This document shows positions 33,450-44,637 of a stretch of DNA of 64,000 nt, piece after piece. The stretch is taken from NCBI GenBank assembly GCA_032139905.1, contig JAQJDB010000007.1, forward strand, positions 372,001 to 436,000, given 5' to 3'. This stretch comes from Nitrospira sp. MA-1 (GTDB lineage: Bacteria; Nitrospirota; Nitrospiria; Nitrospirales; UBA8639). Position 1 is the first letter of the stretch. Each line of letters starts with the position of its first letter. The notes under the pieces are model-generated. The model was not told where the DNA came from and ran no database searches. It worked only from the letters and a program-made list of their open reading frames with translations. Both the position numbers and the translations under genes were made by a program.

Positions 33450-34115
33450 TTGAAGCATCGAGTAGGGTACGGATTATTGGTCTGGTATTTGGGGTTTTTC
33501 GTGTTCATGGGGTTGGCTCCCATTGACCCTCAAAGTTGGGCCTTTGCGAATATCCTCCCGCTTCTCTTCGTCGGTGTGTTAACCATGACACATCGCCAAT
33601 GGCCATTTTCAAGCGCTTCATATGTCCTCCTCACGGTGTTCCTCACCTTGCATACGATTGGATCACACTACACCTATGCTCAGGTGCCGTTCGGACTTTG
33701 GCTGGAAGAGTCCTTTGAATTGCCCAGAAACCATTTCGATCGCATCGTCCATTTTTGTTTCGGCCTACTATTTGCCCTGCCTTTGCATGAACTCTTCTCC
33801 CGGATTTCCGGTATGGCTGCATGGCTCCGCTCCGGCATGGTCCTGATCACCCTGGTGGGGCTGGGCGGTATGTGGGAAATTCTCGAATCATGGGTGACCA
33901 GAATCGCCCACCCCGAATTAGGTCTGGCCTATCTGGGAGCACAGGGAGATATCTGGGATGCGCAGAAGGATATGGCCGCGACATTCTATGGAGCATTAGC
34001 CTCTCTAGTGATCATGGCTGGTGGGCAGAAACTAACGGGAACCCGTTTGACCATAACCCGGGAAAGGCCGGTGGAACTTCCGCATGCAATTGACCACTGC
34101 GACAAGCGTCAATAA
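33450..34115 (+). CDS. DUF2238 (YjdF-like) membrane protein, copy 1
   Basis: 221 residues. The start is TTG 33450, decided by GAGGAGG just upstream. About six transmembrane helices are predicted. Conserved stretches are TLHTIGSHYTYAQVPFGLWL, RNHFDRIVHFCFGLL, WEILESWVTRI and LGAQGDIWDAQKDM, diagnostic of DUF2238/YjdF proteins of unknown function. The His/Tyr and Asp-rich conserved positions could bind metal. It overlaps the next, paralogous gene by 32 bp in another frame. Confidence 0.9.
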   Translation: MKHRVGYGLLVWYLGFFVFMGLAPIDPQSWAFANILPLLFVGVLTMTHRQWPFSSASYVLLTVFLTLHTIGSHYTYAQVPFGLWLEESFELPRNHFDRIVHFCFGLLFALPLHELFSRISGMAAWLRSGMVLITLVGLGGMWEILESWVTRIAHPELGLAYLGAQGDIWDAQKDMAATFYGALASLVIMAGGQKLTGTRLTITRERPVELPHAIDHCDKRQ

Positions 34116-34746
34116 TCAGAGGCCGTTTAAGAACCGGATTCTCCTTCACGGGTTAATGGCCTGGTATGCGGTGCTTTGGATATTTCTCGCCATAGAACCG
34201 ATCGACCGCCATGATTGGTTTCTCGAAAATATATTGGCGATTGGATTGGTCATTGTGCTTGTCACGACGTATCGATGGTTTCCCTTATCGGATCTTTCCT
34301 ATATTTTTCTCACGGTGTTTATGACCCTCCATGCGATCGGAGCCCATTATACCTATTCAAAAGTTCCTCTTGGATATTGGATGCAGGAGTGGTGGGGATT
34401 AGAGCGCAATCATTTTGACCGGATCGCACATTTTTCATTTGGTCTGCTCCTCGCCTATCCTTTAAGGGAGTTATTTCTTCGCCGGGTCAATGTGCGTGGA
34501 TTCTGGGCGTATTATCTCCCCGTTAGCGGAATATTGGCCCTCAGTGGATTCTTCGAAATTATCGAATCCTGGGTTGCTCTCCTCGTTCGTCCGGAATTGG
34601 GGGAGGCCTATCTAGGTACTCAAGGAGACGAATGGGATGCACAAAAGGATATGACCGTGGCGGTCATCGGGGCCGTTTTAACAATTATGCTGACGTATGT
34701 CTTCTCCAAAGTCGTGCCACAAAAATCCCTTCCGACTGCTCCTTAG
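34084..34746 (+). CDS. DUF2238 (YjdF-like) membrane protein, copy 2
   Basis: 220 residues, paralogous to copy 1 along its length: TLHAIGAHYTYSKVPLGYWM, RNHFDRIAHFSFGLL, FEIIESWVALLVRPELGEAY, LGTQGDEWDAQKDM. It starts inside the end of copy 1 (32-bp overlap), with GGTGGAA upstream of the ATG, so the two are probably translationally coupled and may form a heteromer. Copy divergence is large, so the duplication is old. Confidence 0.9.
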   Translation: MQLTTATSVNNQRPFKNRILLHGLMAWYAVLWIFLAIEPIDRHDWFLENILAIGLVIVLVTTYRWFPLSDLSYIFLTVFMTLHAIGAHYTYSKVPLGYWMQEWWGLERNHFDRIAHFSFGLLLAYPLRELFLRRVNVRGFWAYYLPVSGILALSGFFEIIESWVALLVRPELGEAYLGTQGDEWDAQKDMTVAVIGAVLTIMLTYVFSKVVPQKSLPTAP

Positions 34747-34762
34747 AATTTCCGATTTCCCT

Positions 34763-36130
34763 ATGATTCACCTGTCCATTGCGGGCTCGATTCCGATCCA
34801 CGCTCACGGAGATGAATCCAAGGGACCACACACGCACGAACGTAGCCGCCACACCCCTATCCATAATTGGATGTTGGCCTTGTCGATATGCCTGATGGTG
34901 ATTTCCCCTCGGGTCGCTTCGGGGGAAGATCCCGACACGCCGCTTGCAGGACAACCCCATCAGACGGAAATTTTTGGACAGGAAATTCATGTCCCTCCAC
35001 GGGATCGCCGGCATGTGACGGCGATCAATATGGGGATGAATTGGATTCCGGACGGACCCAAAAGATTGGAACTTCTCCCATTTGGAGCCTTGTTTATTTG
35101 GCACAATTGGGAGGAGGAAAACCGGCGGTTTCGGGGGACAATTTCAGGCGTTTTCAATGACATTCAGTACCAGCATGGTCTGTCATCGACCAGCCCATGG
35201 TTTGCCGCCATGACCTTTGAAAATGTGATCATTCCATTCGGCCGATACGAGTATGTAGAAGGACAGGCTATCAAGGATGTGGACCTGCAATGGAATTATT
35301 TCTTCGCCGGAATGGGTTTCGGGTATCGCACGTCAGTTTCTCCGGGGTTTCAGGATAATGTGGTTGAAGTTTCTTTGACGTATGAACCAGGTTACCGGTG
35401 GTTTGACCGCAGTTCAAAAACATCCCAAAATTTCACCGTTCCTCAAAATACCTACGAAGGGCGTGTCCATGCCCGGCTCCGGGTAGATAAATTTGAACGA
35501 AATCTCATGGAGTTGCTTCATCACGGTGTTGCCTTCGGAGGTGATGCCATTTATGGACATCGCTCCCAATGGCGTCAGTGGGGAGATCCGGAATTTGAGA
35601 CCCCCGATAACCATGATGATCCCACATTTATGCTGGCCAGCTTCTATGCCGCCTTGGCGGGCAAGGTCCCGTTTGTCCCGACAGAACGGCACAGGTTGGT
35701 TGTCACGATGTATGGTGGAATCGGGAAAAACCTTGACCGATTTTCCACCTTCCGGTTGCCGGGCCGTCCTACGGGCTACGAGTGGGAGGCGCTGTCACGT
35801 CCTCTCATACCCGGAGTGGCCTTCAACGAACTGTTCCCTCGCAAGTACGCGATTGCGAACCTCACCTACCGGTATGAGGCGTTGTTTTTCTTGTATCCGT
35901 ATATACGAGGTACCTGGTCCGCGATTGAACGAGCCCGTTTCAACGGGGATGGTTCTATTCGCAACCAGGTAGATATGCTGCCCGCCGTGGGAGGGGGAAT
36001 TGTCAGTGGGGCTCCATGGGGTTCACAAATAGAGATCAATTATAGTTATAACTTTGGGATATACCGGGACCGGCACGGGCCCAAACTGGGAGGTAATAGT
36101 GTGGTGGTATTCTGGTCAAAGCTACTTTAA
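34763..36130 (+). CDS. Outer-membrane-like protein of unknown family
   Basis: About 455 residues if started at ATG 34763; ATG 34871 (MLALSICLMVISPRVASGE) gives a more typical signal peptide, so the start is unsettled. The mature part has many alternating aromatic beta strands (FGALFIWHNWEEENRRFRG, LQWNYFFAGMGFGYRTSV, NVVEVSLTYEPGYRWF), as in a beta-barrel, and ends with Leu-Leu. The His-rich segment before the signal (HAHGDESKGPHTHERSRH) is odd if translated. It follows the DUF2238 pair and its upstream part overlaps copy 2 in another frame. Confidence 0.7.
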   Translation: MIHLSIAGSIPIHAHGDESKGPHTHERSRHTPIHNWMLALSICLMVISPRVASGEDPDTPLAGQPHQTEIFGQEIHVPPRDRRHVTAINMGMNWIPDGPKRLELLPFGALFIWHNWEEENRRFRGTISGVFNDIQYQHGLSSTSPWFAAMTFENVIIPFGRYEYVEGQAIKDVDLQWNYFFAGMGFGYRTSVSPGFQDNVVEVSLTYEPGYRWFDRSSKTSQNFTVPQNTYEGRVHARLRVDKFERNLMELLHHGVAFGGDAIYGHRSQWRQWGDPEFETPDNHDDPTFMLASFYAALAGKVPFVPTERHRLVVTMYGGIGKNLDRFSTFRLPGRPTGYEWEALSRPLIPGVAFNELFPRKYAIANLTYRYEALFFLYPYIRGTWSAIERARFNGDGSIRNQVDMLPAVGGGIVSGAPWGSQIEINYSYNFGIYRDRHGPKLGGNSVVVFWSKLL

Positions 36131-36214
36131 CATGAAGCGAAAAAAATTCCCGCATCCGATTTTCTGGGGATCAGAATGAAGATCTTCGCCTTCTTCTTTC
36201 CTCTTCCGATATGG

Positions 36215-36418
36215 TTAGTTCCGTTCCTGAGTCGGGACCTGTGGATCGACATGCATTTCTGTTTGAACCACTCCATAGAAGATCGTCGCCAGGGACAGAA
36301 TCAACAAAAAATAAAAGGCCACGCGCGCCGGTCCTAAAATAGGGGTCGTAAAGACTCCAAATCCGATTAAGGCACAAAGTCCTGCGAAGATGAGTAAAAT
36401 GAAGCCGATGGTGAGCAT
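36215..36418 (-). CDS. Small two-helix membrane protein
   Basis: 67 residues: IGFILLIFAGLCALIGFGVF, a short turn (TTPILGPARVA), a second helix FYFLLILSLATIFYGVV and a short polar tail. AAAGGAGGTACC gives a near-ideal ribosome site before ATG 36418. Organisation resembles DUF1328-like stress peptides, but the sequence is distinct and no family is assigned. It is convergent with the outer-membrane-like gene. Confidence 0.75.
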   Translation of the reverse strand: MLTIGFILLIFAGLCALIGFGVFTTPILGPARVAFYFLLILSLATIFYGVVQTEMHVDPQVPTQERN

Positions 36419-36883
36419 GGGTACCTCCTTTTCTGGCAGGCAAGAGACCGACTTTAAAAAAGATTTCCGCCATGGTTTTCCTTCCCGGCCATCATTCCAT
36501 CAAACGTCGTATCCGCAATCAACCAGGTTCTGTCTTTTCCTTTCAACGTATTTGTGCGCAAGAGAAATGGCCGCCGCCATCGCCCGCCTGGAGAGAATGG
36601 TGTTGGTGTCTACAATATTCTTATTCATCCAGTTCATCTCTGCATTTTCCGAAATAGGAAACACCCAACCCCTACACTGAAATTTGAATTCTTGAATATG
36701 AAATCTTCAAAAGCTTATCAACATAGTGACAACTCCTTTACCTATCCCCCTAAACACTTCCCTCCTGTGTGTAGGAATGAATGGCGCAGAGAAGAGAGGA
36801 GAGAAACAAGATATTGGATCTCCATATTTCTGGAGCATCGCTAGCATTCCCTTCGCCAGGCTACGAATTTCTCCCTCAATCTG
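36419..36883. other. Intergenic stretch, 465 bp
   Basis: No convincing gene was found on either strand. Open frames exist but lack ribosome sites and recognisable domains. Any promoter for the 67-aa gene must lie here. Confidence 0.45.
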
Positions 36884-38635
36884 TTACACAAGTTCCCGTA
36901 CTCGATCTGACAAGGCCGTCATGGCAATTTTCAAACGATTCGGTTCGCCTCTTGCCAACGATTCGGCAAATTTCAGGGCCTGACTCGTTGTAATGTTGGC
37001 GGGCATCGGAGGCTCGAATGGGTCCACAATGGCTTGCACTAATACCGGACCAGGAGTTTGCAAGGCCTGTTCGATGATGGAGCCGCAATCCGCCGGATCA
37101 TCTATAGTCAACCCTGTGCCTCCGCACGCCTGAGCGATGAGGGCGAAATCGATCGGCTGCAGCTCGCAACCATATTCAGGATTTCCCAGGAACACCATCT
37201 GTTCCCATTTAATCTGGCCGAGGGTATTATTCTTGATGACAACCACTTTCACGGGTAATCGGTATTTGACACAGGTGGCGAACTCAGCCATGAGCATGGA
37301 GAAACCTCCATCACCCACAAACGCAATGCATTGCCGATCCGGAAAGGCGATTTGAGCGGCGATGGCATAGGGCAGCCCGCAGCCCATTGAAGCGAGTGTT
37401 CCCGAGACCGTATGTTTCTGTCCGCGTTTGGCGGGTATTTGTCTGGCCCACCAGGTCGTAATGGTTCCTGAATCACAGGAAACAATCGCGTGGTCCGACA
37501 GCCGTTTGCCCAGTTCCCAGGCGACCACTTGTGGCTTCATGGGTTTGTCCTTCCTGGTTCCTCGGGCTTCCATTAATTCCCGCCATTTTTTCATATTGGT
37601 CTGTGCGCGTTCCAAAAATTTCCGGTGTTTATTGTGGTGTAACATCGGAAGTAATTGTTGGAGTGTCTTTCGACAGTCGCCCACCAGGCCGACTTCCACA
37701 GGGTATCGCAACCCGATTCTTGCCGGGTCCAGGTCGATCTGGACCGCACGCGCCTTTCCTGGTTTTGGATAAAATTCCAAATAGGGGAAGGACGTGCCGA
37801 TGAGGAAGAGCGTATCACAATCCTCCAGGGCCTCCTGGGAGGGTGCGGTGCCCAGCAAGCCAATCCCGCCTGTCGTATAAGGACTGTCATCAGGCACCGA
37901 AGCTTTGCCTAGCAACGGTTTAATAATCGGGGCTCCAAGAATTTCCGCTAATTGTTCTAATTCATCTGTCGCTTCAAGTGCTCCCGCTCCGGCCATAATG
38001 GCAATCCGTTTTCCGACATTCAGCACTTCTGCGGCTTCATACAGGTCTGATTCATTGGGGAGGCGGGCGCTACGGGAAAATACTTCCATCGAATGATGGG
38101 GAATGTTTCGTTGGGAATAACCTTTGTCGGCTTTTGATTCCTGAAGATCCACCGGGAAATTAATATGAGCCACGCCACGATAGCCCAAGGCGGTCCGACA
38201 TGCGAGATCCACGACATTTTCAAGATGTGTCGCGCTCATCACCCGGGTGTTATAGACTGTGACATCCTCAAAGGCTCTGGTGAGATTGACATCCTGCTGG
38301 GCATGGGTATCAATCAGGTCGTGAAAGTGATGGCCGGTGATGGCAAGAACCGGTTGTTTTTCCATTTTCGCATCATACAATCCGTTCAACAGATGAAGCC
38401 CCCCCGGACCGGACGTGGCCAAGCACACACCTAGCTTTCCCGTGTATTTGGCATATCCACATGCCATCAAGGCTGCGGCTTCCTCGTGACGCACCTGGAA
38501 AAACCGGATATGGTCTTGTCGTTGGCGAAGAGCTTCCATAATTCCATTAATACCATCTCCGGGCATGCCGAAAATTATTTCGACCCCCCAATTGTGAAGC
38601 TTCTCGATCAACACATCTGCGGCGGTTTTCGTCAT
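36884..38635 (-). CDS. Thiamine-pyrophosphate enzyme (pyruvate oxidase/ALS-like)
   Basis: 583 residues with the three-domain ThDP layout. The N-terminal Pyr domain has the catalytic Glu in RHEEAAALMACGYAKYTG, then a middle domain (LFLIGTSFPYLEFYPKPGKA). The C-terminal PP domain has GDGGFSMLMAEF and VVIKNN, the Mg-ThDP motif. FGMPGDGINGIMEAL and SGPGGLHLLNGLYDAK match pyruvate oxidase/PoxB-like and uncharacterised acetolactate-synthase-like enzymes. FAD and substrate specificity are not deducible. It is last in a likely minus-strand set with the ASRT-like gene 67 bp upstream. Confidence 0.9.
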   Translation of the reverse strand: MTKTAADVLIEKLHNWGVEIIFGMPGDGINGIMEALRQRQDHIRFFQVRHEEAAALMACGYAKYTGKLGVCLATSGPGGLHLLNGLYDAKMEKQPVLAITGHHFHDLIDTHAQQDVNLTRAFEDVTVYNTRVMSATHLENVVDLACRTALGYRGVAHINFPVDLQESKADKGYSQRNIPHHSMEVFSRSARLPNESDLYEAAEVLNVGKRIAIMAGAGALEATDELEQLAEILGAPIIKPLLGKASVPDDSPYTTGGIGLLGTAPSQEALEDCDTLFLIGTSFPYLEFYPKPGKARAVQIDLDPARIGLRYPVEVGLVGDCRKTLQQLLPMLHHNKHRKFLERAQTNMKKWRELMEARGTRKDKPMKPQVVAWELGKRLSDHAIVSCDSGTITTWWARQIPAKRGQKHTVSGTLASMGCGLPYAIAAQIAFPDRQCIAFVGDGGFSMLMAEFATCVKYRLPVKVVVIKNNTLGQIKWEQMVFLGNPEYGCELQPIDFALIAQACGGTGLTIDDPADCGSIIEQALQTPGPVLVQAIVDPFEPPMPANITTSQALKFAESLARGEPNRLKIAMTALSDRVRELV

Positions 38636-38702: not shown

Positions 38703-39083
38703 TTAGGAATTGTCCGTATAGGCGATGGTAGAGAGGAGTGCATTTTCGGCCTGGCGGGAGTCCAACCTGGTATGTTGCACCACAATTGGCACATCGGACT
38801 CAATCAGGCTTGCGAAATCCGTATCCCTGGGAATGGGTTCCGGTTCTTCTAAATCGTTAAACCGGACATGTCTCGTTCGTTGAGCCGGGACAGTAATGTT
38901 ATAAGGCCCTATCGGTTCCCGATCTGAATAAAAAATGGTGATTTTTACATGCGCGGGCTTGTTGGATATGTTTAGGAGACAGGCTGTTTCATGACTCGTC
39001 ATTTGAGGTTCTGGACCGGTACTGTTCGCCGGAATATACCCTTCCGGGATTGCCCATCGCGTGGCACCCATCGCTTGAGTCAT
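38703..39083 (-). CDS. Sensory rhodopsin transducer-like (ASRT) protein
   Basis: About 126 residues. WAIPEGYIPANSTGPEPQM, then TSHETACLLNISNKPAHVKI, TIFYSDREPIGPY, RTRHVRFNDLEEPEPIPR, and SDVPIVVQHTRLDSRQAENA cover the whole ASRT family. Those proteins form a tetrameric beta-sandwich known from the soluble transducer of Anabaena sensory rhodopsin. Start ATG 39083 is supported by an ATGA overlap with the small gene upstream. No microbial rhodopsin is encoded in the window. Neighbours are sugar-type oxidoreductase and ThDP enzymes, so a small-molecule or carbohydrate role is an alternative. Confidence 0.9.
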   Translation of the reverse strand: MTQAMGATRWAIPEGYIPANSTGPEPQMTSHETACLLNISNKPAHVKITIFYSDREPIGPYNITVPAQRTRHVRFNDLEEPEPIPRDTDFASLIESDVPIVVQHTRLDSRQAENALLSTIAYTDNS

Positions 39084-39259
39084 GACCCTATCTCTTTTTC
39101 TGCTGGCGTTCGCGGGGCTTTTCCGACTTGTCCTTGGCGATGGCGACGTTCCCATTCCCTATCCAATGCAGCCTCAAGAAGATAGGAAGGCAAGGATGGG
39201 TTAATATTTCCCGATAGATGTGACCCCTGGGAATCACTGATGTTCATCGGTTCATTCAT
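39080..39259 (-). CDS. 59-residue protein coupled to ASRT gene
   Basis: From ATG 39259 (GGAAAGGA upstream): MNEPMNISDSQGSHLSGNIN, then PSLPSYLLEAALDREWERRH and a polar C-terminus ending KEIGS. Its TGA overlaps the ATG of the ASRT-like gene (ATGA), a sign of translational coupling. It is soluble, with one probable amphipathic helix. No family is recognised. It lies 68 bp after the Gfo/Idh gene and is probably cotranscribed with it. Confidence 0.72.
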   Translation of the reverse strand: MNEPMNISDSQGSHLSGNINPSLPSYLLEAALDREWERRHRQGQVGKAPRTPAEKEIGS

Positions 39260-39327
39260 GAGAAAATTCCTTTCCTTGTTTACCTTTAAAAGGTGAATGA
39301 AAAGATTGCATGCCCATCAGCCGCTCA

Positions 39328-40485
39328 TTATGATCCCGACGGACTCTGAGCGTGAACGAGTTGGGGTTTTTTAACCGGCGGACGGCGGAGATTTTGCCGC
39401 ATTGTTGGACGGCGTTTCCGGTTTAATTCTTTAAGAGAGACCGGCTGGCCTTTTTGGGCTGAACGATAAAGAGCATCGATAATTCGAACATCATGAAGGC
39501 CTTCATCGCCTGCCGGTTCGGGAATCGTCCTGTTCAAAATGCAGTCCGAAAATTTGAGCAGTTGGGGAGCAAATTGATCGCGTTTGGAAAAGGTTTGCTT
39601 TTTCTCCTTCCCGTTAATGGTCAGGTAATGCGTAATGGGCTCAACATACTCGTAGGCTGATGTCATCCGTAGTTGTCCCTTTGTACCCACGATCCGAAAC
39701 TCGGAAACGTCGGCGGCTCCGAAACTACAGATGAAGGAAGCCAACCGATCTTCGGGAAACCGGAGTGTCACCGCGCACATTTCTTCAACTTCCTCGAATT
39801 TACCGTTTCCCTGTCCGGCGTTGGTGGCATACACGCTAAGAGGTTCCGCTTGAAAAAGATACCGGGCGGCATTTAAACAATAAATGCCGATATCCCAAAG
39901 CGTTCCTCCACCGGTCTCTTCCCGTAGGCGGATATTATTTTTGTCTTTGACCGGGAGACTAAATGCCGATTGAAAGTATCGGGGATTGCCGATTTTCCCG
40001 GATTGAACGATTTGGATCGCGCGTAGATTGGCCTCCTCAAAATGAAGCCGATAGGCAACCATCAATTTGATACCATGATGGTCTGCCGTGCGAATCATGG
40101 TTTCACATTCCTTGACCGAGGTGGCCATGGGTTTTTCACACAAGACATGAATCCCAGCTTTCGCAGCTCGGGTGGTATATTCGCAATGCAAATGATTGGG
40201 AAGAGCGATATACACGGCATCAATTTTTTCCCGTTCCAGGCATTCTTCATATTGGTCATAGGAATAGAGCCCGCGAATGCCATATTGTTTCCCCAATTGC
40301 TTCAATTTTTTGGGGTCATCGGAGATGAATGCCGCTAATTCCGAGTTCTTTTTCGCATGCGCGAAGGCCGGGAGCACGGCCACCTGAGCGATATATCCTA
40401 ATCCTACAACCGCGTACCGGATAGGGATTGAGGGCTTTGTTTGTGTGCGTGATCTCTTTTTTGTCGATGTTTTTTTGGGTGCCAT
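39328..40485 (-). CDS. Gfo/Idh/MocA family oxidoreductase
   Basis: 385 residues. An N-terminal Lys/Arg/Ser/Thr-rich stretch precedes the Rossmann domain (YAVVGLGYIAQVAVLPAF), the catalytic-type EKP motif in HVLCEKPMATSVKEC, and the C-terminal alpha/beta domain (GGGTLWDIGIYCLNAARYLF). Layout fits glucose-fructose-oxidoreductase-like NAD(P)-dependent sugar dehydrogenases. Substrate unknown. It is the first gene of the set 40485-36884 and carries a shared promoter element 73-90 bp upstream. Confidence 0.9.
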   Translation of the reverse strand: MAPKKTSTKKRSRTQTKPSIPIRYAVVGLGYIAQVAVLPAFAHAKKNSELAAFISDDPKKLKQLGKQYGIRGLYSYDQYEECLEREKIDAVYIALPNHLHCEYTTRAAKAGIHVLCEKPMATSVKECETMIRTADHHGIKLMVAYRLHFEEANLRAIQIVQSGKIGNPRYFQSAFSLPVKDKNNIRLREETGGGTLWDIGIYCLNAARYLFQAEPLSVYATNAGQGNGKFEEVEEMCAVTLRFPEDRLASFICSFGAADVSEFRIVGTKGQLRMTSAYEYVEPITHYLTINGKEKKQTFSKRDQFAPQLLKFSDCILNRTIPEPAGDEGLHDVRIIDALYRSAQKGQPVSLKELNRKRRPTMRQNLRRPPVKKPQLVHAQSPSGS

Positions 40486-40730: not shown

Positions 40731-41537
40731 TTAGTCGTGTCCAGTTTTACTCTTCGTATGGACACTCCCATCCATATTCCATGCGGGAGAGCCGTCAATC
40801 TTCCGCACGGTCAGGACTTTTCCGTTTCTTTTCAGCACAATTTTTGATGCGACAATCACACTTTCCCCTTCTTTCATGATGCGTGAACCGGTCACTTCGA
40901 CTTTATCGCCTTCCGTAACCTCTACCCCCTGAGCTTTGAGGTAATTATCTGGTGCAACCCGCACACGCTCGGTTCCGGAGGAGGTTTTCACATCCAGCAC
41001 GATAAGACTATCGGTTGTGGCGACTCCTGATTCAAACAGGTCATTATTCACGTTTTCCACCGTTCCATCGACTGTTTCGACAGTGGCCGGGTTGAAGTCC
41101 CTGGTATGAATGCCGGCTGCTTGTTGATTGTGGACTGATGGGTGGTTTTTAGCCGGCGCCTTTTCGCCAATCGGCGCTTCGGCGACCTGAACCATCATTT
41201 TATCATCTTGTTTGGTGAGCTTGACCTCCGCCCAGGGGATGGAATAATTTTCCGACCCGATGCCCAACGTTCCCCCGAATGTGCCTCCATAGGAGAGCAC
41301 AATATAAGATATCTGGCCGGTCTTTTGGTCAATCAGTAAATCTTTGACCGTGCCAAGTTCCTTGCCCGCCTTGTCAATGACGGTGTTGCCAATAAGAGTA
41401 TTGGCGTTGAGAAGAAGTTCATTAGATGGATGAGTCGATCCTCCTGATTCACTGAGGGCTAAGGACATGCCTCCTCCGATGAGAGCAAAGGCTAATGCCA
41501 TTCCGAGCGTGCCACTGGTTCTACGTCTTGTGTTCAT
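40731..41537 (-). CDS. Secreted PRC-barrel protein
   Basis: About 268 residues from ATG 41537 (AAAGGAAA upstream). The signal peptide (TLGMALAFALIGGGMSLALS) is followed by a PRC barrel at about 45-115 (LIGNTVIDKAGKELGTVKDL, LLIDQKTGQISYIVLSYGGT, SIPWAEVKL). A C-terminal OB-like segment (VDGTVENVNNDLFESGV, VEVTEGDKVEVTGSR) resembles the beta units of the other secreted proteins here. Periplasmic; function unknown. A truncated relative with the same signal peptide lies 176 bp upstream. Confidence 0.87.
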   Translation of the reverse strand: MNTRRRTSGTLGMALAFALIGGGMSLALSESGGSTHPSNELLLNANTLIGNTVIDKAGKELGTVKDLLIDQKTGQISYIVLSYGGTFGGTLGIGSENYSIPWAEVKLTKQDDKMMVQVAEAPIGEKAPAKNHPSVHNQQAAGIHTRDFNPATVETVDGTVENVNNDLFESGVATTDSLIVLDVKTSSGTERVRVAPDNYLKAQGVEVTEGDKVEVTGSRIMKEGESVIVASKIVLKRNGKVLTVRKIDGSPAWNMDGSVHTKSKTGHD

Positions 41538-41713
41538 AATGATTAATTTCCTTTTTGTAAGAGTTTCTAAAAACTGATGGTGATTTGGTGATGTCATCTT
41601 CTTGATTTATAAGGTAATGGAATGGTCACGAGCCAAAAACCGTGCAATCTTCTTTCCTCCTCTTATTAAAAGGGCTAACCATCACGATAAAGGAAGGTAA
41701 ATCGCCTCTGCGG

Positions 41714-41977
41714 CTAGGGGTGGCTGTACCTCTCACCTGGAAAAGGAATAGATTTCCGATGCGATGCTAGTTGTTTTGGAAAGGTTTCCGTGATCGGAAA
41801 GGATATATAGGAAATTTGGCCGGGATTCTGATCCTTTAACAATTCGGTAACCGTTGCCGACTTCCCCCCCGGACCTGTCGGGACTGATTCATTAAGTACG
41901 AACATCATCCCTCCCCCTGCCAGGCCAAACGCTATGATCATTCCGAGAATTCCTTTAAAGGTCATGAGTGGGGGCAT
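41714..41977 (-). pseudogene. Truncated secreted PRC-barrel paralogue
   Basis: 87 residues from ATG 41977 (AAGGAAAAC upstream). The signal peptide (ILGMIIAFGLAGGGMMFVLN) and TELLKDQNPGQISYISFPIT plus SIPFPGERY match the intact gene at 40731-41537 (LLIDQKTGQISYIVLSY; SIPWAEV). The first strands of the barrel and everything after the PRC domain are missing and key positions have drifted. It still keeps a good ribosome site and a shared promoter element. It is probably a decayed duplicate, though expression of a short secreted peptide is possible. Confidence 0.7.
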
Positions 41978-42035
41978 GGTATGTTTTCCTTGTAAAAAAC
42001 TTTCGTGAGTATCATCTGTGTTTTCTGATTTCCTG

Positions 42036-42077
42036 ATTGTAAAGAAAATTGGAGAAAATGCGCCTGGAGAAAACCCT
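42036..42077 (-). promoter_or_regulatory. Shared promoter element, site 6
   Basis: Minus strand: AGGGTT at 42077-42072, CCAGG at the CAGTT position, and TACAAT at 42041-42036, 36 bases from the first A. It points to the truncated PRC gene at 41977. Confidence 0.6.
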
Positions 42078-42139
42078 TGCTTCCTTGTTTTTTCTCCCTG
42101 ACGCATATGGCCGAACAATATTTGGGAAATCGCGATTCA

Positions 42140-42825: not shown

Positions 42826-43686
42826 CTACACCCTCGTATCTCTGAACGACATTTCATCCGTTCGCTCGAAAAATTCCAACAGATGTCTTGTCACGATCTC
42901 CGGTTGGTCCAACATAACAAAGTGCCTTGCGTCCTTCACACGAATCAATCTCGAACCCTGAATATCCTTCACGAGCCTTTCTCCATAATGAATAGGTTGA
43001 AAACGATCGTTCTGACCCCATACGACCAGTGTTGGAATCCTGATTCTCGAGAGGAGATGGGTGATTTCCGTCGTGAGATTGGTATTCAATGCGGCTGCAT
43101 TCCGTATGAGTGACAGTTTCCCCGTCTCGGTGGTGTAGGGTGCCAATAATCCATCCAATACTTCCCGGTTAACGGAGGAGGCAAATCCGCCCTTTAAGGC
43201 CTGTCGAAGCAATCGAACCGCAAGCGAGGCTGATAATTTCCGGTGAGCTTCAGGATGTCCAAACTGGAGCATCAATTCAATTGGCCAGGAGTCATAACAG
43301 ACCGTGTTCATGACGATAAGCGTTTGAACCCGGTCGGGGAACAGGGTCGCCAACCTCAACGCGACACCGCCCCCGATATCATGCCCGATGATCGTGGCAC
43401 GAGGGATTCCTAATTGTGTCATCCAGGAGGCAATCATATGGGCCTGGCAGGCGATGGAGCGATCAAAGCAATCGGCTTTATCACTAAAACCGAATCCGAG
43501 TAAATCAGGGATCAGGACGCGACGGGTTCGCGCCAACTCCGAAAAGATCCCGTGCCACAAATAACCCCAGACAGGGATCCCATGGATGAGGATAACAGGG
43601 GGACCAATTCCCGCCTCCACATAACTGAGAAACCGGTCGTTAAGCCGGCTGACGAGTTGAATCCGCTGAAATTCCCGCCAGGTCAT
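42826..43686 (-). CDS. Alpha/beta hydrolase, haloalkane-dehalogenase/epoxide-hydrolase-like
   Basis: 286 residues. The oxyanion motif is in ILIHGIPVWGYLW. The nucleophile is Asp in GHDIGGGVALRLA, the form used by haloalkane dehalogenases and epoxide hydrolases rather than Ser esterases. The general base His is in KDARHFVMLDQPE, and WGQNDRFQP may supply the acid. Its start overlaps the stop of the DehI-like gene (ATGA), so the two are coupled. A haloalkane or epoxide substrate is plausible but not proven; the Trp/Asn halide-binding pair cannot be confirmed by eye. Confidence 0.87.
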   Translation of the reverse strand: MTWREFQRIQLVSRLNDRFLSYVEAGIGPPVILIHGIPVWGYLWHGIFSELARTRRVLIPDLLGFGFSDKADCFDRSIACQAHMIASWMTQLGIPRATIIGHDIGGGVALRLATLFPDRVQTLIVMNTVCYDSWPIELMLQFGHPEAHRKLSASLAVRLLRQALKGGFASSVNREVLDGLLAPYTTETGKLSLIRNAAALNTNLTTEITHLLSRIRIPTLVVWGQNDRFQPIHYGERLVKDIQGSRLIRVKDARHFVMLDQPEIVTRHLLEFFERTDEMSFRDTRV

Positions 43687-44579
43687 GTTGGTGACTTCAT
43701 TATGGGCGAGGGTACGCCAACCGGAAAGGGCGACATTTCCAAATCCTCACGAGATCGCCAATCCAGAGACATCAGCACGATATTTAAAATCAAAGGTGGC
43801 AAAAGGTGGGTAAAATCGGAGGTTGTCTCCAGGAAGCTCTGTCGTTTCCTTCCCAGAATCATCAACTGGTCCTCAGACAAGGTTAGTCGAGGAATGACCT
43901 CGCCTGCCATCTGTTGAGCCGCTTCCTGTAAGGCCACCGCGGCTTCCATGTATCGAGGTTGATGTATCACAGATTTTAGGCGATGCCAGACTGAAAGAAA
44001 ATATTCCGGCCATAATGCCAACGTCCGGTAATCGCTGTTAATCCTGGTTAAACCCAATGTTCGTTGTAAATCCCGAAATGTTTTCCGGAGAGTGGCATTG
44101 TCCGGAGTTTCCTCGATCATTTCCATGGGGTACATGTGACGGGGAATTCCTCGCGTAATCAGCTCATGATCCTGTTGGCGGGATTGGAAAGCGGTCATAG
44201 TGGGATGATGGCAAGCGTATTCCACCGCGGACGTGATGAGCAGGAGCTTGGGATTGATGTAATGGTAAAGTTCGAGAGCGGCCTGTATGTGAAAAACCTG
44301 GCTTTCACCCAACCTGACGGACGAGGCCACCTCCAACCTGGGAAGTTTCTCGGCAAGGCGGGCAGCTAACGCCCGGAGTTGATCGGATGAATCTTCGAAT
44401 ACACGGGTTTCAGCGACCGGTCGAATTGACTCCCATAAGACAGGGAAAAACGTTGGATAGGCGGCCCATGTGCGAAAGTTGAGATTGACTCCGGAAACAC
44501 GAAAGACCTGTTTAATCTCATGAAAAATGCTGTCCAGCTCTTTCTCAGCCTCTTCTTCTGGTATGGGATGGTTTTTCAT
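43683..44579 (-). CDS. DehI family (group I 2-haloacid dehalogenase-like) protein
   Basis: About 298 residues from ATG 44579. Two related halves fit the DehI pseudo-dimer: VSGVNLNFRTWAAYPTFFPV with LWESIRPV, and TRINSDYRTLALWPEYFLSV with WHRLKSV. DehI enzymes hydrolyse both D- and L-2-haloacids by direct water attack using an Asp, here possibly the Asp in NSDYR. The name halocarboxylic acid dehydrogenase DehI is often used in databases. It is coupled to a downstream Asp-type hydrolase, and a weak shared promoter element lies about 60-75 bp upstream. Confidence 0.85.
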   Translation of the reverse strand: MKNHPIPEEEAEKELDSIFHEIKQVFRVSGVNLNFRTWAAYPTFFPVLWESIRPVAETRVFEDSSDQLRALAARLAEKLPRLEVASSVRLGESQVFHIQAALELYHYINPKLLLITSAVEYACHHPTMTAFQSRQQDHELITRGIPRHMYPMEMIEETPDNATLRKTFRDLQRTLGLTRINSDYRTLALWPEYFLSVWHRLKSVIHQPRYMEAAVALQEAAQQMAGEVIPRLTLSEDQLMILGRKRQSFLETTSDFTHLLPPLILNIVLMSLDWRSREDLEMSPFPVGVPSPIMKSPT

Positions 44580-44637
44580 AACACACAAAAATGAGTGGGG
44601 TGTTTATCCAAAGTGTGGGCCACGCGGCCTGAATTGA

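Follow-up and report, generated by a model that had tools for sequence, protein, structure and literature searches.

A stand-alone ASRT-family gene in Nitrospira sp. MA-1, its link to a pyruvate oxidase-type enzyme and its conserved 59-codon neighbour

The ASRT-family protein encoded by Nitrospira sp. MA-1 has no rhodopsin encoded beside it, and it is proposed here, with a probability of roughly 0.5, to serve as a rhodopsin-independent, metabolite-sensing accessory of a ThDP/sugar-oxidation module, tuning the enzymes encoded next to it. The gene lies in a 64,000-nucleotide stretch of DNA (hereafter the window), where it forms a cluster with genes for a Gfo/Idh oxidoreductase, a 59-residue protein (P59) and a ThDP-dependent enzyme (Table 1). 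Nearly all work on ASRT has treated it as a light-signal transducer. The central claim of a metabolic, rhodopsin-free ASRT is already published, since a metabolic, ligand-binding role was proposed in 2009 with "pyruvate decarboxylase/oxidase" among the named neighbours (De Souza, Iyer and Aravind, 2009; PMC2739507). What is added here is a controlled absence of rhodopsin, a measured link to the ThDP gene, a deletion within the module, rhodopsin debris beside intact ASRT genes and the small gene family of P59. The source organism belongs to family UBA8639, described in the accessible part of a recent source as lineage IV of the Nitrospirales, comprising marine or saline nitrite oxidisers (PMC12342949).

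Table 1. Features of the ASRT cluster, with positions in the window
Feature	Position	Strand	Evidence
Gfo/Idh/MocA oxidoreductase, 385 aa	39328..40485	-	Pfam PF01408, PF22725, PF02894; PDB 5a02 E 7.5e-69, 1ofg E 2.8e-60
P59, 59-aa small protein	39080..39259	-	kept in 7/7 same-genus ASRT loci; dN/dS
ASRT-family protein, 126 aa	38703..39083	-	PF07100 E 1.2e-56; PDB 2ii7 E 2.5e-58
ThDP-dependent enzyme, 583 aa, pyruvate oxidase/PoxB type	36884..38635	-	TPP_enzyme N, M and C domains; PDB 3ey9 E 2.8e-101
Deletion junction, MR_MLE dehydratase and FAD/FeS oxidase missing relative to sister locus L013	36490..36510	.	blastn against L013

The genome of origin (G000; G-numbers denote genomes and L-numbers loci) comprises 4.76 Mb in 7 contigs. 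The cluster is read in the order Gfo/Idh, P59, ASRT and ThDP enzyme, with 68 bp between the first two genes, a 4-base ATGA overlap between P59 and ASRT, and 67 bp before the ThDP gene. All members of this set had been named in a first-pass annotation and all are present, the ASRT gene being full-length as had been stated (PF07100, 190.2 bits, the cut-off being 25; match spanning positions 1-118 of a 119-position profile). The nearest solved relatives of the Gfo/Idh protein are an aldose-aldose oxidoreductase (AAOR, 5A02) and a glucose-fructose oxidoreductase (GFOR, 1OFG), the enzymes of Caulobacter and Zymomonas, respectively. Its best NCBIfam model was XylDh_Gfo6, with a score under the cut-off of that model, and the NCBIfam search of the cluster proteins returned no curated equivalog at cut-off. 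The ThDP enzyme is closest among solved structures to E. coli pyruvate dehydrogenase [cytochrome] (PoxB, 3EY9), and its RHEE and GDG...NN motifs are intact. To our knowledge, neither E. coli PoxB nor the Zymomonas and Caulobacter oxidoreductases are encoded together with an ASRT. A promoter scan gave 5 sites with 5.8 expected, and a terminator scan gave 11 with 6.6 expected, none of the terminators being convincingly placed.

Several further genes were recorded around the cluster. On the minus strand upstream of Gfo/Idh lie genes for a PRC-barrel protein and for a short paralogue that looks truncated (40731-41597 and 41714-42118), and at 42826-44588 an alpha/beta hydrolase gene is overlapped by that of a DehI-like protein in which two stretches are matched; the best NCBIfam model for the hydrolase is haloalkane dehalogenase, under its cut-off, and the two may form a dehalogenation pair. 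The plus strand carries two related membrane proteins in tandem (33450-34746, with a DUF2238 match in the first) and a 477-codon frame (34697-36130) which has no Pfam or NCBIfam match and is kept beside the cluster in sister genomes.

The start of the ASRT protein was placed at 39083 from its relatives and the ATGA overlap. A 150-residue version in the open reading frame listing (39155-38703) was rejected, given that its residue 25 is where homologues start and that the ATG further upstream arises necessarily from the E-W codons in P59. The resulting protein resembles Anabaena ASRT (PDB 2II7) closely from end to end and is more distantly related to Thermotoga TM1070 (PDB 1NC7; E 1.9e-16), another rhodopsin-free member of the family. 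TM1070 has been described as a homotetramer with a ligand cleft, 1,2-ethanediol having been observed in its pocket, and its gene neighbours, unlike those in the window, are an isomerase, an aldolase and a kinase (PMC2739507). A pocket signature, SHExxCxxN, is present in 83 of the 84 homologues compared and reads SHETACLLN in the window. In a tree built on 125 columns, in which 43 of 81 inner branches are open, conclusions are limited to two supported groups, namely the window clade (8 rows, SH-aLRT 97) and a cyanobacterial rhodopsin-bearing group (14 rows, SH-aLRT 93).

A second conserved stretch bears on a different possibility, that ASRT is a DNA-binding regulator, looping or wrapping DNA and controlling the cluster's transcription, with any metabolite binding setting its affinity for DNA. 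As reported in the accessible part of PMC8660804, Anabaena ASRT binds DNA at micromolar affinity and loops it, with contacts at R109, Q110 and N113, and 81/84 homologues, the window's among them, retain the corresponding RQ..N stretch, the correspondence carrying a one-residue numbering offset inferred from the alignment. This affinity is weak, however, and in the same part of that source random sequence was looped better than the pec promoter. The RQ..N residues are moreover near-invariant in all contexts and may be structural, and TM1070 lacks the motif in the alignment, so that a regulatory role of this kind is considered rather unlikely. As both SHExxCxxN and RQ..N are nearly universal, these marks do not separate rhodopsin-linked from rhodopsin-free ASRTs, and judged from sequence conservation they would set aside neither ligand binding nor DNA binding.

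The absence of a rhodopsin extends well beyond the cluster. The genes upstream of the window ASRT are P59 and Gfo/Idh, and the first-pass observation that no rhodopsin is near, which came with the suggestion of a genome-wide search, holds for the type-1 family (PF01036) across the whole genome, with 0 matches. None was detected in any of 13 Nitrospirota genomes either, a set including the genome of origin and two same-genus genomes assembled in one contig each, and both cyanobacterial controls (G235, G236) were matched by the same search. It could be argued that a rhodopsin partner of ASRT escaped detection, being divergent, a heliorhodopsin or encoded in an unassembled part of the genome, considering that the search for heliorhodopsin (PF18761) matched neither these genomes nor the controls. 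The result for PF01036 in 13 genomes with matching controls, together with the 99.98% completeness of the genome of origin, nearly refutes this explanation.

The ASRT genes of other organisms were surveyed at 84 loci, consisting of the best 80 of 368 relatives found in genome contigs, the window and loci from three further genomes, and the counts accordingly describe close relatives of the window ASRT. In this set rhodopsin is the exception, a rhodopsin gene being located directly upstream of ASRT in 6 loci, all of them cyanobacterial, where five of the genes are long and one (L029) is cut at its start. In four of the six, the rhodopsin gene overlaps ASRT by ATGA, as P59 does in the window. 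The arrangement in the window is thus similar to the Anabaena sensory rhodopsin-ASRT operon in the ASRT itself and in the type of overlap found in its cyanobacterial counterparts, and differs in having P59 rather than a rhodopsin as the upstream gene. In 2011 the ASR-ASRT pair was held to be special to Anabaena PCC 7120, according to the accessible part of PMC3198991; these cyanobacterial loci indicate that the pair extends beyond that strain.

In at least three cyanobacteria, the rhodopsin adjacent to ASRT is reduced to debris at the ASRT locus, with the ASRT gene intact. At L020 an in-frame fusion links the first 23 rhodopsin residues to the last 53, leaving an open frame of 74 codons from which the membrane core is gone; L027 holds a similar remnant with a broken frame, and L025 a remnant of the rhodopsin tail. 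Weak matches to rhodopsin tails were also detected at L038 and L076. All these remnants lie upstream of their ASRT at a distance of no more than about 220 bases, and the ASRTs concerned retain the full signature, on branches comparable to those of rhodopsin-bearing loci (that of L038 is somewhat longer). The finding looks new, no report of it having been found in the literature covered, from which most subscription journals were absent. Given that rhodopsin is rare among the close relatives and has been lost beside a retained ASRT in some cyanobacteria, a metabolic function appears to be the general one to seek.

The same survey, which had been suggested as a way of examining the first-pass reading, revealed a recurrent association with ThDP enzymes. 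A ThDP gene occurs somewhere in the fetched flanks of 26/84 loci, and in 17 it lies on the same strand within 150 bp of ASRT, in each case no more than 120 bp away, with none located at 150-2000 bp (all counts again referring to the best 80 of 368 relatives and four added loci). An eighteenth ThDP-ASRT locus (L080) has an overlapping reading frame with an ambiguous start on a short contig and was counted apart. Eight of the 18 belong to the window's own family and ten come from outside it, in Nitrospirota, Actinomycetota, Chloroflexota, Pseudomonadota and Acidobacteriota. Other genes in the flanks, named from a single representative per cluster, include SDR (23 loci), MR_MLE dehydratase (18), FAD-linked oxidase (16), TreS-like amylase (12) and GH15 (12), the sugar-handling neighbours comprising the TreS-like amylase, GH15 trehalase-like and glycogen-debranching-like proteins, the FAD-linked oxidase, a sugar-lactone oxidase and an MR_MLE sugar-acid dehydratase. 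Gfo/Idh adjoins ASRT in the window's family only, a relative being found kilobases away in three more loci.

Not all of the neighbourhood is concerned with sugars. No ThDP gene adjoins ASRT in 66/84 loci, and the recurrent AI-2E transporter, histidine kinase and PRC-barrel neighbours point to stress islands, which argues against a role confined to a single pathway. The cluster might accordingly be a general stress or starvation island, in which ASRT, the ThDP enzyme, the PRC-barrel protein and P59 are co-regulated without direct functional contact. PRC-barrel proteins and AI-2E-type transporters do recur nearby, and in G031 and G234 a PRC-barrel-like gene takes the place of ASRT before the ThDP gene (PF05239 was confirmed in G031 only; in G234 the likeness was judged by eye). 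Against this, the ThDP link is one of strict, same-strand adjacency in five phyla and not of mere proximity, and the island explanation is regarded as improbable, though worth bearing in mind.

The history of the module was traced by comparison with related loci. At L013 and L014, genes for an MR_MLE dehydratase and a FAD oxidase come after the ThDP gene. At L090 and L091 these two genes are reduced to adjoining fragments, which encode the N-terminal 46-49 residues of the dehydratase and approximately 50 C-terminal residues of the oxidase. Both genes have been deleted from the window, where the junction is flanked by homologous DNA: when window positions 35001-37000 were aligned to L013 by blastn, 36044-36490 corresponded to sequence on the far side of the FAD oxidase, and 36510-36611 to sequence between the ThDP gene and the dehydratase. 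ASRT, the ThDP gene, P59 and Gfo/Idh were kept together through this deletion. Coupling between ASRT and the ThDP enzyme is nonetheless not strict, considering that G031 carries the ThDP orthologue without an ASRT and that G233 and G234 carry both genes apart (G003, with its ThDP gene cut by a contig end, was left out of this comparison). The cluster recalls the solo ASRT/ASRAH sugar-metabolism operons described in 2009 (PMC2739507), with which it shares a stand-alone ASRT, a pyruvate oxidase-type ThDP gene and the SHExxCxxN signature, the listed dehydratase and FAD oxidase being carried by the sister genomes as well. It differs from them in being headed by Gfo/Idh and P59 and in the deletion of the last two genes, and the Nitrospirales are absent from the taxa listed in that paper.

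A metabolic ASRT is thus suggested by the adjacent, same-strand ThDP gene across five phyla and the sugar-handling neighbours, by the persistence of ASRT and the ThDP enzyme together after the deletion, and by the near-universal pocket signature, the absence of PF01036, the 2009 proposal and the 1,2-ethanediol in the TM1070 pocket (PMC2739507). The first-pass suggestion of a metabolic role for the ASRT fold, for instance in binding a sugar or keto-acid, is supported in part, the part that gains being the metabolic role, through the cross-phylum neighbourhoods, the absence of rhodopsin and the cyanobacterial debris. According to this proposal, ASRT would act as a small soluble tetramer, and its pocket at the SHExxCxxN strand may bind a metabolite resembling a sugar, a sugar acid or a keto acid. 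It would then tune the neighbouring enzymes by direct contact, above all the PoxB-like ThDP enzyme. The cluster itself would be the trimmed remnant of a module of Gfo/Idh, P59, ASRT, ThDP enzyme, dehydratase and FAD oxidase for the oxidation of free sugars or sugar acids. P59, whose stop codon overlaps the ASRT start, would be made together with ASRT and is probably a lineage-specific helical partner. The PoxB-like enzyme and P59 are in this way two concrete candidates for partners of ASRT.

P59 itself had been put forward in the first-pass annotation as a new gene, and it is a genuine gene rather than a chance frame, evolving under purifying selection. All 7 same-genus ASRT copies are preceded by a P59 of precisely 59 codons with the same ATGA overlap, in which 18 residues are invariant and the core reads YLxEAxLDREWERRHR. 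Pairwise dN/dS is 0.16-0.63 in its own frame (20 of 21 pairs with computable dS) and 0.05-0.27 in the core (19 of 21 with usable dS); in neither of the alternative frames does it drop below 0.80. Searches of Pfam and NCBIfam gave no match at E 0.1. AlphaFold predicts a single helix at residues 25-45 with the rest disordered, in a model that is weak overall (mean pLDDT 61.8) and scores about 82-84 over residues 21-40.

Within the family, the distribution of P59 closely follows that of ASRT. A profile built from the same-genus proteins detected it in 7/7 ASRT-bearing and 0/13 ASRT-free genomes of the genus, while a wider profile (A2), to which more distant members were added, found P59-like genes at E < 1e-7 in 10 genomes of the family, the same 10 that carry ASRT. 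Both genes were looked for in 38 genomes of the family, of which 10 carry the pair and 28 lack it entirely, leaving aside a weak P59 hit in G014, a co-occurrence that mostly reflects physical linkage among genomes that are not independent, with 10 further family genomes outside the ASRT test. In G233 and G234 both genes are present and lie apart.

Additional P59-like copies precede a fructose-1,6-bisphosphatase gene by 149-232 bp (G010, G016, G017), overlap by TAATG the gene of an NMT1-like binding protein (G027) and precede a DJ-1/PfpI gene by 494-810 bp (G233, G234). It is conceivable, at long odds, that P59 founds a family of short helical adaptors (core SYxxEAxLDxEWE) dedicated to ASRT, one of them translationally coupled to ASRT itself and others beside these different metabolic or stress genes; were this so, a single metabolite-sensing ASRT tetramer could plug into several enzymes. 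The similar ATGA mini-frame of L020 raised the question of whether P59 is a remnant of a rhodopsin tail, an idea that was rejected because no likeness to rhodopsin tails was seen by eye and because P59 relatives occur away from ASRT. Hits outside the family in G062, G119, G167 and G200 (E 9e-5 to 0.004) look like chance, one of them falling inside a 471-codon frame judged by eye to be reverse transcriptase-like. They were dropped, and so were the hits in G014 and G017 (contig C258), at E 0.004 and 0.05 in frames of more than 400 codons. The P59-like genes beside NMT1-like, fructose-1,6-bisphosphatase and DJ-1/PfpI genes are located at L100 (1411-1620), L108 (1489-1689), L107, L153, L101 (1372-1662) and L105.
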